Positions 11,970-31,742 of a stretch of 64,000 nt of DNA are shown piece by piece. The first letter of the stretch is position 1, and each line of letters opens with the position of its first letter. The translations under genes and the position numbers were made by a program. The stretch comes from Arthrobacter sp. AQ5-05 (GTDB lineage: Bacteria; Actinomycetota; Actinomycetes; Actinomycetales; Micrococcaceae): positions 1 to 64,000 of the forward strand of contig NZ_QMKQ01000009.1 of the NCBI RefSeq assembly GCF_003287975.1. Direction: 5' to 3'. Below the pieces are notes generated by a model. The model was given only the letters and a program-made list of their open reading frames with translations. It was not told where the DNA came from and did no database searches.

Positions 11970-12095
11970 GGTGGGGGTCCTGAAAATGGATGCGATGTCC
12001 GGAAGCACGGTGGTGTCCGGGTTCCATCTTGAATCAACTCATTGATATAAGTCAATCACTAGCGCGCCACAAAACGGGCGACAGGTAAGTTACCC

Positions 12096-12662
12096 ATGAG
12101 TAGGATGGGGTTCATGCATGCTCTCTTTCGCCTCCTGATCCTGCTCGCCACTGCCGGCAGACGCCCCAAGCTGTCCATGTTCGATACCTCTTCGGTTCCG
12201 ATGCGGGCGCTGCTCACCGACATCGACGTGGCCGGACACATCAACAACGGCATGTACTTCTCGCTCTTCGACCTCGGGCGGTTCGATCTCATGGTCCGCG
12301 CCGGGGTGTGGAACGTGATGAAGAAGAACAAGTGGACCCCGGTGGTGCAGGCCGAGACGATCACCTTCCGCAAGTCCGTCGTCTTCAACCAGAGGTTCAC
12401 CCAGGAGACCCGCATCCTGGGCATGGACGACAAATGCATCTACTTCGAGCAGCGGATGGTTGCGGACGGCGAGATCTACGTGCACGCAACGATGGCCACC
12501 CGGTTGCTCTCCAAAAAGGGCCCGGTGTCCAACGAGGCGATCCTTGCCGCGATGGGGCTCGGGGTTCCGGCGGACCTGGTGCTGCCGGACTGGGTGGCGC
12601 GCTGGCGCGAGGACACCGCATTGCCCGGCGCCCGAAGGCCCGCGCCGCACCTCTGGGGCTAG
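12096..12662 (+). CDS. Thioesterase-like protein, 4HBT_2 hotdog fold
   Basis: The 188-residue protein carries TDIDVAGHINNGMYFSLFDLGR, the hotdog-fold active-site region of 4HBT_2 thioesterases, where the Asp/His/Asn cluster contacts the acyl-CoA thioester. A hydrophobic N-terminus (ALFRLLILLA) precedes the domain, as in THEM6-like members, and may bind membrane. A second ATG at 12114 is also possible. The gene ends on a CTAG shared with the convergent regulator gene. The probable reaction is acyl-CoA hydrolysis with unknown chain specificity. Confidence 0.78.
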   Translation: MSRMGFMHALFRLLILLATAGRRPKLSMFDTSSVPMRALLTDIDVAGHINNGMYFSLFDLGRFDLMVRAGVWNVMKKNKWTPVVQAETITFRKSVVFNQRFTQETRILGMDDKCIYFEQRMVADGEIYVHATMATRLLSKKGPVSNEAILAAMGLGVPADLVLPDWVARWREDTALPGARRPAPHLWG

Positions 12663-27223: not shown

Positions 27224-29632
27224 CTAGCCGCGCAGGTGCCTGCGGTTGCGAACCATGACCAGCACCGGGATCAGCAACAACGCAAGCGGGATGAGCAGCA
27301 GCAGCGCACTGGGGCCGCTGCTGATCGTGGTCGCCGAGACCGCCTGCGTGCTGGCCTCCAACCTCGAGGTTCCGCTGGCCAATTGCGTGGAACCCTCCGC
27401 GAGGGTGGACAAGCCGGTGGCGAGCTGGGAATTTCCATCGGCCAGCTTCGCCGCACCGTCGTCGAGCTTATTGGCTCCGGTGGACAGATCCGAGGAACCC
27501 TTGCGAAGGGCCTCGAGGCCGAACGCCAGTGTTTCGGTGCCGCCCGCGAGCTTCGCCGCACCGGCGTCGAGGCTTTCGGCGCCGTGGGCGAGCTTCGTGT
27601 TGCCTGCAGCCAGGCTTCCGGCACCGTTCTTGACCTTGGCTGCACCTGCTGCCGCCGAGTCGGCGCCGTGGGCCAGAGCGGGGGTGTTGGCCGCAAGTTT
27701 GGAGGTTCCTGCCTTGAGCTCGCCGGTTCCTGCGGCCACCTTGTCCATCCCGGCCGCAAGCTTCTTGCCGCCCTCTGCCAAATCCATGGCCCCGGTGTTG
27801 AGCTTGGCTGCTCCGGTATCCAGGGCCGAGGTGCCGGCCGCGATCTTGCTTCCGCCCTGTGCCAGGGCTTCGGCGCCGGTGCTGAGCTTGCCTGCCCCTT
27901 CTTCCAATGATCCGGTTCCGCGCGCCAGGGAACCGGCTCCGTCGCTGAGCTTGGTGGTGCCGGCGGCCAAGGCGTCGGTGCCCTCGGCCAGCTGCGAGGC
28001 GCCATTGCCCAGCGAGCCCAAGCCCGCTAGAAGGCCTTCGGAAGAATCGTTGAACCCGGCGTCGAGTTGGCCGAGTCCCGCGTTGAGGTTCTTGGCCCCG
28101 GCATCCAAGTCGGTGGCCCCGGCCTTCAGCGCGCCGATGCCCTCGCCGAGGGCCTTGGATCCTTCACTGAGTTTTCCCAGTCCTCCATCGAGCTGCGCGG
28201 CACCGGACTTCAATGCCTGTGCGCCGTCATCCAGCGCGCCGGTCTGCTGGGGAAGATCCTTTGTTCCCGCTTTCAGGGCGTCCATGCCCTGCGAAAGTTG
28301 CTTGCTTCCGGCGGCAAGCTTCTGGGCGCCGGTGGACAGACTGGTGGTGCCGGCATGCAGCTTCCTCAAGCCGCCGTTGAGGTCCTGGGAACCCGAGCTC
28401 AGGGCGTTGACCTTCTCCAGCAACAGGCCTGCCGGCACCGCCGGGTTTTCCTTCACGAATGCTGCCAGGTCCTCGAGTCCGTTGGAGAGACGCGCGGATC
28501 CGGCGGCCAGTTCGGAGGTTTTCGCATCGGCCGTGGCCAGCCCGTCGGACAAGTTTTTGGCGCCGTCCTCGACTCCGGAGGCACCCTGTTGCGCCGCCAC
28601 GATCCCGCCGCGCAATTGCGGTGCGGCGGCGGCCAGCGCCTTGGTGCCTGCGGCCAGCTTGGTGCTTCCGGAGGCAAGCTGACCCGAGCCGTCCTTCAGG
28701 CCCGCCACGCCTTCGAGCAGGGCGGGTGCCTTGGAGGCAAGTTCCTCGACGCCGCCAAGAAGCTTGCCGCTTCCAGCGGCCAAGGCACCGGATCCGGCCG
28801 CGGCGCTCGAGGTGCCATTCGCAAGTTTTTGCGCGCCCGCGTTTGCCGCCTGGGTTCCGGCGGCGAGTTTCTGCGCCCCGTCCCGGGTGGCATCGGCGCC
28901 GGCGGAGAGCTGCTGCGCGCCGGCGGACAGGTCCTGGGCACCGGCGTTGGCCTGGCCCGTTCCCAGGCCCAGCTTCGCCATTCCCGCGGACAGTGCGAGG
29001 GATCCGGCCTTGAGCGTCTGCGCCCCGGAGTCCAGGGTGGCGGTGCCCGTGGCCAGCGATTCGGTTCCGGTGGCGAGTTTGGTCGAACCCGCACTCAGCG
29101 CACCTGCACCCGTATGGGCGTCCCGGGCCCCGGTGGCCAGTTTGCCGGCACCGGCATCGAGTTTGCCCGCCGCGGCATCGAGAGAAGCGGTGCCCGCGGC
29201 AAGCTTGTCCACACCGATTGCCAGGTCGCCGGCCCCGCTCCCCAGCTTGGAGGCGCCGGCCGCAGCGTCCCGGGCACCGAGGGAGAGCTTTGAGGTGCCC
29301 GCGTGCAGTGAGACCGCGCCATCACCGAGCTTGTCGGCGCCCGCGGCGGCGTCCTGGGCACCGTCGGCCAGTTTCTGCGCGCCGACTGACAGGGCACCGG
29401 TGCCGTTGGCCAGCTCCGTGGCTCCGGAGGCTGCCGCGCCGGAGCCGTCGGCCAGCTTGGCGACGCCGTCATTGGCCTTGCCCATGCCGTTGTTCAACTC
29501 GGAGGCACCGGAGGCGACCTGCGATGAGAACATTGCGTAGAAGGCCACGAAGGCGATCAGGAACAGGCCGAGCAAAACCGTGATGACGGCATGCAGCAAC
29601 GTGTGCCGCTTGGCGGCAATATGTGCATTCAA
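27224..29632 (-). CDS. Giant Leu-x-x-Gly heptad-repeat membrane protein
   Basis: This 802-residue protein starts at TTG 29632, with a perfect AAGGAG five bases upstream. It has an N-terminal membrane helix (about 12-35, VITVLLGLFLIAFVAF), a C-terminal membrane helix (about 770-790, SALLLLIPLALLLIPV) and a short basic tail. Almost everything between, roughly 700 residues or 100 units, is a seven-residue repeat A/T-x-x-Leu-x-x-Gly with few interruptions (near SKAPALLEG, ENPAVPAGLL). Similar heptads occur in YhgE/Pip phage-infection and ESX/MMPL-linked proteins, but here they make up the whole protein. It would form a long surface rod anchored at both ends. Function is unknown. It is divergent from an FMN protein gene. 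Confidence 0.85.
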   Translation of the reverse strand: MNAHIAAKRHTLLHAVITVLLGLFLIAFVAFYAMFSSQVASGASELNNGMGKANDGVAKLADGSGAAASGATELANGTGALSVGAQKLADGAQDAAAGADKLGDGAVSLHAGTSKLSLGARDAAAGASKLGSGAGDLAIGVDKLAAGTASLDAAAGKLDAGAGKLATGARDAHTGAGALSAGSTKLATGTESLATGTATLDSGAQTLKAGSLALSAGMAKLGLGTGQANAGAQDLSAGAQQLSAGADATRDGAQKLAAGTQAANAGAQKLANGTSSAAAGSGALAAGSGKLLGGVEELASKAPALLEGVAGLKDGSGQLASGSTKLAAGTKALAAAAPQLRGGIVAAQQGASGVEDGAKNLSDGLATADAKTSELAAGSARLSNGLEDLAAFVKENPAVPAGLLLEKVNALSSGSQDLNGGLRKLHAGTTSLSTGAQKLAAGSKQLSQGMDALKAGTKDLPQQTGALDDGAQALKSGAAQLDGGLGKLSEGSKALGEGIGALKAGATDLDAGAKNLNAGLGQLDAGFNDSSEGLLAGLGSLGNGASQLAEGTDALAAGTTKLSDGAGSLARGTGSLEEGAGKLSTGAEALAQGGSKIAAGTSALDTGAAKLNTGAMDLAEGGKKLAAGMDKVAAGTGELKAGTSKLAANTPALAHGADSAAAGAAKVKNGAGSLAAGNTKLAHGAESLDAGAAKLAGGTETLAFGLEALRKGSSDLSTGANKLDDGAAKLADGNSQLATGLSTLAEGSTQLASGTSRLEASTQAVSATTISSGPSALLLLIPLALLLIPVLVMVRNRRHLRG

Positions 29633-29981
29633 CTGGACTCCTTGAGGGAAAGCGTTGGATGGTGCAGTGTCTTGCCACAGCGTTTTTGGGCGCACCGAAG
29701 TACGCCGAGCACTGCGGCACGGTGGAGCGGGAAGGGTCCGCAGCCGGCGGCCGGACGGACCCGGGATCGGTCTGTGATGGGAGTAACAAAAGGGCTAGAC
29801 CCATTGAACTTACTCGTGGGTAGGTTTGCAAGCGTTTTGGCGAAAAAACTTACCGGACAGTAAGTTGTGACGTCTTTTGGGTTTTTGCCGAGGCGTCCGA
29901 GAATGCCCCTCAGCTGGTGCCGATGGGCGCCGGATTCCTGAATCGGCCCGAATGGCGCGCGAAAGTTGTAGGCTCGCAGAC
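29633..29981. promoter_or_regulatory. Divergent control region with twin 20-bp inverted repeats
   Basis: Two 20-bp sites share the layout AACTTAC - 6 bases - GTAAGTT. Site 1 (29807-29826) has one mismatch in the right arm (GTAGGTT) and site 2 (29847-29866) is perfect; their starts are exactly 40 bp apart. A minus-strand promoter TTGCAA (29831-29826), 17 bp, TTCAAT (29808-29803) contains site 1 in its spacer. A plus-strand promoter TTGGCG (29837-29842), 18 bp, TAAGTT (29861-29866) contains site 2. The geometry suggests one dimeric repressor, TetR-like in operator style, controlling both genes. The rest of the region has no coding frame of note. Confidence 0.65.
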
Positions 29982-31742
29982 ATGGTGAGATTCCTGATTA
30001 TCGCGTTGTTGTCATTGCTCGGCTTCATCACGGTCGTCGCCGCGTCCTTCGGTCGCGATGGATGGTGGGCGATTGCGGCGCTGGCTTTGCTGCTGTTGGG
30101 GTTGGGCATCCATGACGTGATCCAGACCAAGCACGCGATCCTGCGAAATTTCCCGGTGCTCGGACGCATGCGCTTCCTCTTCGAGTCCATCCGCCCCGAG
30201 ATCCAGCAGTACTTCATTGAGCGGAACACCGACGGACGGCCCTTTGACCGCGACACCCGCTCGTTGGTCTACGCGCGTGCCAAGGGCGCCGACAGCCACA
30301 AGGCCTTCGGCACCGAACGCGACGTCAACGTGGTCGGCTACGAGTTCCTGTTGCATTCCACCGCCCCGGTTCCAGTCAGCGGCGAACAGCACCGGGTGCG
30401 GATCGGCGGACCGGACTGCACCCAGCCCTACGAGATGTCGCTGATGAACGTGTCCTCCATGAGTTTTGGGGCGCTGTCCAAGAACGCAGTGCTGGCCATG
30501 AACAAGGGCGCCGCCATGGGCGGGTTCGTCCAGGAAACCGGAGAAGGCGGTCTGGCCCAGTATCACTTGGAACACGGGGCGGACCTGTTCTGGGAGATCG
30601 GCTCGGGCTACTTCGGGTGCCGGGATGCGGAAGGAAACTTCGACCCCGAAGTCTTCGCCCAAAAGGCGGCCAACGAACACGTCAAGGGCATCACCATCAA
30701 GCTCTCCCAGGGTGCCAAGCCGGGCCTGGGCGGGGTGCTTCCGGCGGCCAAGATCACCCAGGAAATCGCCGAGACCCGTGGGGTTCCGATGGGCGTGGAT
30801 TGCATTTCCCCGGCATCGCATTCGGCCTTCAGCACCCCGCGCGAACTCATGGAGTTCGTCGCCCGGCTAAGGGAACTTTCCGGCGGCAAGCCGATCGGCT
30901 ACAAGTTCTGTGTGGGTTCGCGCACCGACGTGCTTGCCATGTGCAAGGCCATGATTGAAACAGGAGTCACCCCCGACTTCATCACCATTGACGGTTCCGA
31001 GGGTGGCACCGGTGCCGCCCCGCTGGAATACGAGGACCATGTAGGGACGCCGCTGACGGAGGGCTTGATGCTGGTGCACAACGCCCTGGTCGGTTCCGGG
31101 CTGCGCGGCAGGATCCGGCTGGGTGCGGCCGGAAAGATCGCCACCGGCTCCGACGTGGTCAAGCGACTGATCCAGGGCGCCGACTTCACCTTCAGCGCAC
31201 GCGCCATGATGATGGCCACCGGCTGCATCCAGGCACAGAAGTGCCACACCAACCGTTGCCCGGTCGGCGTGGCCACCCAGGACCCGCGGCTGATGCGGGC
31301 GCTGGACGTCACGGACAAGGGCAACCGGGTCTACAACTACCACAAGCTCACCGTCCAGGAAGCTGCACAGCTGATGGCCTCGATGGGTGTGGGGGCTCCC
31401 GGCCAGTTGAACCTGCGGATGCTGCGCAGGCGCATCGACCAGTTCACCACGCGCAGCTACGCCGGCCTGCACAACTGGCTCGCGCCGGGCGAGCTGTTGG
31501 ACAACCCGAAGCGCGGCTGGGCGATGGACTGGGAGGAGGCGGACTCCGGCACCTTTGGCGAGCACGTGCCCCTGTTGTGGTCCAACGATCGTGAACCCGC
31601 TCCGGCGGCTGTTGCCGGGACGGTGCCGACCCGGCGTGTGGAGCCCAAGGACTCCACGCACCACACCGTGGCCCCGGTGCACCCGAACGCCGAAAGGCCC
31701 GAAGGGCGCCCGGCACCCAAGGCCACGCACAAGGCAGGCTAA
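29982..31742 (+). CDS. Membrane-anchored glutamate-synthase-like FMN protein
   Basis: The 586-residue protein starts at ATG 29982 with two N-terminal membrane helices (about 2-45) and then the FMN/central domain of glutamate synthase (about 100-520). Visible motifs are SSMSFGALSKNAVLAMNKGA, GEGGLAQYHLEHGAD, the glycine-rich ITIDGSEGGTGAAP, and a 3Fe-4S motif C-x5-C-x4-C (CIQAQKCHTNRC). The glutaminase domain and the GltD partner are absent. Such stand-alone proteins are known as FMN-binding glutamate synthase family proteins with unsettled function. A Pro/His/Lys-rich tail ends the protein. Confidence 0.85.
   Translation: MVRFLIIALLSLLGFITVVAASFGRDGWWAIAALALLLLGLGIHDVIQTKHAILRNFPVLGRMRFLFESIRPEIQQYFIERNTDGRPFDRDTRSLVYARAKGADSHKAFGTERDVNVVGYEFLLHSTAPVPVSGEQHRVRIGGPDCTQPYEMSLMNVSSMSFGALSKNAVLAMNKGAAMGGFVQETGEGGLAQYHLEHGADLFWEIGSGYFGCRDAEGNFDPEVFAQKAANEHVKGITIKLSQGAKPGLGGVLPAAKITQEIAETRGVPMGVDCISPASHSAFSTPRELMEFVARLRELSGGKPIGYKFCVGSRTDVLAMCKAMIETGVTPDFITIDGSEGGTGAAPLEYEDHVGTPLTEGLMLVHNALVGSGLRGRIRLGAAGKIATGSDVVKRLIQGADFTFSARAMMMATGCIQAQKCHTNRCPVGVATQDPRLMRALDVTDKGNRVYNYHKLTVQEAAQLMASMGVGAPGQLNLRMLRRRIDQFTTRSYAGLHNWLAPGELLDNPKRGWAMDWEEADSGTFGEHVPLLWSNDREPAPAAVAGTVPTRRVEPKDSTHHTVAPVHPNAERPEGRPAPKATHKAG

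Follow-up and report, generated by a model that had tools for sequence, protein, structure and literature searches.

The window analysed here, a stretch of 64,000 nucleotides that opens contig NZ_QMKQ01000009.1 of Arthrobacter sp. AQ5-05 (Micrococcaceae; assembly GCF_003287975.1), holds two divergent genes with a pair of inverted repeats between them. On the minus strand, at 27224..29632, lies the gene for an 802-residue membrane protein built of X-X-X-Leu-X-X-Gly heptad repeats (hereafter HEP), which begins with a TTG codon behind AAGGAG, a start read from the sequence. On the plus strand, at 29982..31742, lies the gene for a 586-residue FMN-binding, glutamate-synthase-like protein (hereafter FMN), which is followed by an MFS transporter gene. 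The proximal repeat, site 1, occupies 29807..29826 (AACTTACTCGTGGGTAGGTT, with one mismatch), and site 2, a perfect repeat (AACTTACCGGACAGTAAGTT), occupies 29847..29866, farther away from HEP on its upstream side; neither is assigned to a strand. An earlier note on this DNA had placed both 20-bp repeats at these positions, had given their start-to-start spacing as exactly 40 bp, and had described the left-hand product as a heptad-repeat protein and the right-hand product as a glutamate-synthase-like FMN protein. These descriptions are all borne out, the last two by matches to TIGR03057 (5.8e-68) and PF01645 (1.7e-88), respectively.

Three places in the window match the 20-bp site with up to three mismatches, against 0.21 expected, and sites 1 and 2 are the only two in the whole genome with at most one mismatch (none in the control). 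Genome-wide matching at two mismatches returned six places versus five in the control, which is chance level, and a degenerate form of the site, again at two mismatches, returned 13 places versus 28. The site pair is present in 13 of the 15 genomes of the genus, with a spacing of 40 bp every time, conserved arms in both repeats and variable 6-bp middles. The twin repeats are real, and it is this conservation, not loose genome matching, that settles the point. Across 84,980 species, each represented by one genome, the exact pair at 40-bp spacing was found in six records, all of the Paeniglutamicibacter group: Paeniglutamicibacter gangotriensis, P. antarcticus, P. terrestris, P. psychrophenolicus, 'Arthrobacter sp. 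C2' and one Micrococcaceae MAG. A search of a plasmid collection returned four Streptomyces records only, covering 2% of the query.

HEP belongs to the TIGR03057 heptad-repeat family, scoring 222 bits against a cut-off of 18.6, and no YhgE/Pip model is found among its Pfam and NCBIfam matches (NCBIfam up to E 0.001), which places it outside YhgE/Pip as those models define it. A faint match to SMC (8.3e-06, 23.8 bits versus a cut-off of 567) is taken as a likeness between coiled coils. The length of the protein is strictly kept: it is exactly 802 residues, in a gap-free alignment, in five species, at 61-93% identity to the protein of the window. The predicted structure, a low-confidence model (pLDDT 58.6, pTM 0.28), is helical with a break in mid-chain near residues 396-400, where prolines occur (ENPAVP), and hydrophobic segments lie at both ends of the protein; such a model at most suggests a long hairpin anchored in the membrane at both ends. 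Further heptad-repeat proteins are encoded in the same genome, two of them adjoining a TetR gene (contigs C2 and C14).

To follow HEP beyond the genus, a profile of its N-terminus was searched against 295 genomes of the family, with matches in 81. The upstream regions of 78 of these 81 HEP-family genes were examined (30 loci from the profile search and 48 fetched), leaving out G504, G514 and G602, where the matches covered the heptad columns only, together with a second match in G022. An operator was found within 600 bp upstream of all 78 genes, which span 17 genera, and the control on reversed sequence gave one of 78. As the 13 genus genomes and three others had been inspected earlier, 62 of the 78 loci provide an independent test of the pattern. 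The arrangement of the sites varies by genus, with single sites, sites 15/16 bp apart, sites 39/40 bp apart, and triple sites. Intervals of 39 bp (n=26) and 40 bp (n=18) between neighbouring sites were counted in 38 genomes, six of which carry three sites, and nine genomes have sites 15 or 16 bp apart; two intervals (163 and 317) are odd. Outside the genus 39 bp is the commoner of the two long spacings. The 40 bp of the window had been described as close to four helical turns, which is loose, as with 10.5 bp to a turn it amounts to about 3.8 turns. Since 39-40 bp corresponds to 3.7-3.8 turns and not to a whole number, two bound dimers would be somewhat out of phase on the helix, and the single-face arrangement that had been proposed is not established.

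Aligning the loci of the genus places site 1 inside a predicted minus-strand promoter of HEP, consisting of a -35 hexamer TTGCAA (29826..29831) and, 17 bp away, a -10 hexamer TTCAAT (29803..29808); the spacer between them holds the operator core (29810-29823). One species of the genus (L014) has TTGAAA and TTTAAT in their place, each of them closer to the usual consensus. The core lies in this same TTG...-17-... frame in 41 of the 78 HEP-family loci, made up of 13/13 in the window's genus, 21/22 in genus g28, 3/3 in g34 and single loci in four other genera; the frame is not seen in the other 37, including all of g10, g33 and g7. Controls in which the frame was slid gave 0 or 1 loci, except for a shift of +5, which gave 22.

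A second kind of palindrome accompanies this promoter. Operators of the Crp/GlxR type follow the consensus TGTGA-N6-TCACA, and the strandless palindrome TGTGATGGGAGTAACA at 29773..29788, just downstream of the presumed HEP start point, departs from it by one mismatch. Palindromes of this type with at most two mismatches accompany the first site, at a distance of up to 140 bp, in 65 of the 78 HEP-family loci versus 3 of 78 in the control; allowing three mismatches gives 66 versus 34, so that the comparison has no value at that threshold. Another conserved block, approximately TTTTTGGGCGCACCGAAGTACGCC, is shared by the 13 aligned loci of the genus; it lies at 29683-29706, within the putative HEP 5' leader.

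Other predicted targets emerge from the operator core. The core YTACYCNNGRGTAR was built from four places, namely site 1 of HEP and the sites at the genes for acyl-CoA carboxylase beta (accD), an acyl-CoA thioesterase and a TetR-type regulator, and was formed after these had been seen. A matrix of the genus sites and the degenerate genome scan had led to the last three of them, in the case of the TetR gene weakly. A looser core, YTACYNNNNRGTAR, was added in order to cover site 2 of HEP, which fits this form only. The 4.65-Mb genome contains YTACYCNNGRGTAR at five places versus one for the reversed pattern: the four above and one on contig C8. This fifth exact core, at G000:C8:90773-90786 (L143), has no clear lipid gene beside it. 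The thioesterase gene lies in the window itself, at 12096..12662 on the plus strand, encoding a thioesterase-like protein of the 4HBT fold; these limits are those of the open reading frame, and the true start probably lies some codons later. An exact core (12090..12103, strandless) sits at its start. Counting any operator within 500 bp upstream that is exact, carries one mismatch or fits YTACYNNNNRGTAR, all 15 genus genomes have one at accD, at the thioesterase gene and at the TetR gene, and reversed controls over all loci of each set gave 0/30, 0/23 and 0/28, respectively. Outside the genus the operator is found at 5/15 accD genes, 5/8 thioesterase genes and 1/13 TetR genes, so self-control of the TetR gene through this site is limited in its range. 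Apart from what appears to be the divergent gene's promoter and start, the operator is more strongly conserved than any other upstream block of the TetR promoter, and at both the thioesterase and TetR genes its right half-site extends into a -10 of TANNNT-like sequence.

Several related palindromes lie elsewhere. A looser one stands directly before a GDSL lipase gene at G000:C2:139526-139545 (L004, 1501-1520), and in family f3 a biotin-ligase/biotin-carboxylase pair and an AMP-binding (acyl-CoA synthetase-like) gene are each preceded by an exact palindrome (L082 and L083, near 1501-1520), both being lipid-linked contexts. Related palindromes of other families were observed before a nitronate-monooxygenase-domain gene (L086, near 1501-1520, by Pfam; L008, 254-273, by eye). 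The intergenic regions that separate haemolysin III from uppS in other genera, considered as a main context of the site, were rejected, as their outer palindrome differs; loci L005, L006, L011, L085 and L089-L092 were read by eye, with Pfam applied to L091 only. In L091 and L092 (near 1501-1530) an exact core lies 15 bp from the related haemolysin III-uppS palindrome, so uppS may be part of the same regulon there.

The earlier note had expected the sites to be bound by a dimeric regulator, to be sought among TetR-type genes, and had placed its gene elsewhere, none lying next to the pair. Both expectations agree with our results. The genome has 35 TetR-type matches, and an adjacent regulator was rejected, as the nearest match on the window's contig lies at 49956. 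A matrix of the 20-bp sites, run over 30 of the 35 TetR loci, gave no strong match; a weak one provided a lead at a gene on contig C4 (G000:C4:10819-11436), which has a DUF3107 neighbour and carries the operator core 60 bp before it. This is the TetR gene of the five core places described above, none of which lies near another of the genome's TetR matches. The product matches TetR_N (5.7e-16), and its best PDB match is M. tuberculosis FasR at 2.7e-44, the next protein following at 5.1e-19. Its best NCBIfam model is likewise FasR, with 208 bits against 62 for the next model; as 208 bits falls below the 330-bit cut-off of NF053731, the mycobacterial FasR equivalog, we name the protein FasR-type and not FasR. 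A PDB search with a 60-residue TetR fragment of another locus (L007) returned two designed proteins. Among 39 genomes checked, a FasR-type TetR was found in 28 overall, and in 16 of the 16 that bear HEP.

The DNA of the FasR crystal structure allows a direct comparison of operators. This 25-bp DNA (PMC7382501) contains an exact TAC-N6-GTA and a second one 13 bp on with one mismatch; in random 25-mers of 65% G+C the chance of the first is 0.0015 and that of both 2.5e-5. The operators studied here are of the same kind in having TAC-N6-GTA pairs. Eleven bases of the crystal DNA, ACTCGCCAGTA, recur unchanged in the accD operators of both G022 and G007, and no HEP upstream region has more than 8 bases in common with this DNA.

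Taken together, we consider it likely, with good confidence, that the twin repeats are paired operators through which an unlinked TetR regulator, probably a FasR-type lipid sensor, acts on HEP. From the sequence evidence we infer TetR binding, acyl-CoA as the ligand and the direction of control for HEP as follows. A FasR-type dimer on site 1 would keep RNA polymerase off the HEP promoter, and a second dimer on site 2 would help repression. M. tuberculosis FasR binds long-chain acyl-CoA and then leaves the DNA (PMC7382501); here long-chain acyl-CoA would lift both dimers, and HEP would be made when acyl-CoA is plentiful. A Crp-type protein bound just downstream of the HEP start point could add a cAMP input, and the FMN gene would run from its own promoter as a bystander.

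The direction of control could be the opposite, with the FasR-type TetR activating HEP, and we regard this as rather doubtful. M. tuberculosis FasR is itself an activator, of fas-acpS, and is bound at several inverted repeats (PMC7382501), and site 2 lies upstream of the HEP promoter, as an activator site might. Repression is favoured by the position of site 1, which covers the -35/-10 spacer in the 41 loci that share the promoter frame, and by the thioesterase and TetR genes, where the right half-site enters the putative -10. It is also conceivable, if somewhat less probable, that the repeats are HEP operators read by another regulator that shares the motif, such as a different TetR or a protein of the MarR or GntR type: the genome is rich in TetR-type proteins, with its 35 matches, and outside the genus the FasR-type gene carries the site before itself in 1 of 13 cases only. 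Against this, the one core place found before any TetR gene is that of the FasR-type gene, these half-sites recur in the DNA of the FasR crystal, and the remaining targets are acyl-CoA carboxylase and thioesterase genes.

Repression by a FasR-type regulator, as we favour it, assigns both sites to HEP, and the neighbourhoods of the two genes in the genus bear directly on this assignment. The FMN gene is found in 15 of 15 genus genomes and an ortholog of HEP in 13. The operator pair accompanies HEP in all 13; G005 and G012 have neither the ortholog nor the pair, and in G008 and G013, where HEP lies about 6.4 kb from FMN, the pair stands before HEP with none at the FMN gene. No site is thus found at the FMN gene in any of the four genus genomes where HEP is not adjacent, nor at any of seven other FMN-family loci examined. 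Given that the pair goes with HEP in 13/13 and is absent from 4/4 FMN genes not beside it, the predicted operators are those of HEP and not of the FMN gene. In addition, all 15 genus loci, the four without adjacent HEP among them, carry a TARGCT 6-7 bp upstream of the FMN gene's ATG (TAGGCT at 29969..29974, plus strand, in the window, presumed to be a -10), which looks like a promoter of the gene's own with a start at or beside the ATG.

These observations decide between the remaining claims of the earlier note, which had placed each repeat in the spacer of a promoter, one facing each way, and had a single repressor co-control HEP and the FMN protein. The promoter around site 1, facing HEP, is supported, and the FMN-facing promoter around site 2 is not, given the FMN gene's own TARGCT. 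Loss of the repeats from close relatives that keep the gene pair, which the note had named as evidence against it, was not found, both sites being kept in all 11 genus genomes in which the genes are adjacent. Co-control itself we reject as highly improbable: the sites do lie between divergent HEP and FMN genes in 11 of the 15 genomes, 99-175 bp before the FMN start, and in G012 (L038) a thioesterase gene that carries the operator stands about 80 bp ahead of the FMN gene on the same strand, possibly in one operon with it, but unlinked FMN genes are without the sites, they keep their own TARGCT, and in G008 and G013 the sites stand before HEP with no FMN gene beside it.

More broadly, we put forward, at about even odds, that across the Micrococcaceae HEP, a membrane-anchored protein of fixed length, shares its control by a FasR-type acyl-CoA sensor with an acyl-CoA carboxylase and a thioesterase, with a Crp (cAMP) input at the HEP promoter, which would make HEP an envelope component set by lipid supply and a steadier member of the regulon than accD. 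HEP may act in envelope or lipid homeostasis, and its heptad-repeat family would gain a first testable physiological place, as the level of the protein should follow acyl-CoA; a cell-surface protein could in this way be tied to the lipid state of the cell. For the FasR-type regulators of the Micrococcaceae, the analysis also yields an operator motif and predicts a regulon. No FasR-type regulon in Arthrobacter or Micrococcus appears in titles or abstracts among the literature matches listed, which is weak evidence of novelty as the subscription literature is largely uncovered. For heptad-repeat proteins, the matches listed comprise Pip/YhgE in enterococci, the rest being unrelated.

Comparison with known systems shows what is shared and what is particular to this one. 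HEP resembles YhgE/Pip and other X-X-X-Leu-X-X-Gly proteins in having heptad repeats between hydrophobic ends and in belonging to TIGR03057, and differs in that YhgE/Pip models are not among its Pfam and NCBIfam matches. The predicted regulon is like that of C. glutamicum FasR and its fasO operator (PMC6460773) in that FasR is there a TetR repressor of acetyl-CoA carboxylase genes and accD is a predicted target here; it differs in that no HEP-like target is named in the passages on the C. glutamicum regulator. The closest solved structure by sequence is that of M. tuberculosis FasR (PDB 6O6N, 6O6O and 6O6P; PMC7382501), with which the system described here shares overlapping TAC-N6-GTA half-site pairs, several operators per promoter and targets in lipid synthesis. 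It differs from mycobacterial FasR, which activates fas-acpS, in its predicted targets, namely HEP, accD, the thioesterase and the regulator's own gene, and in the position of site 1, which suggests repression.
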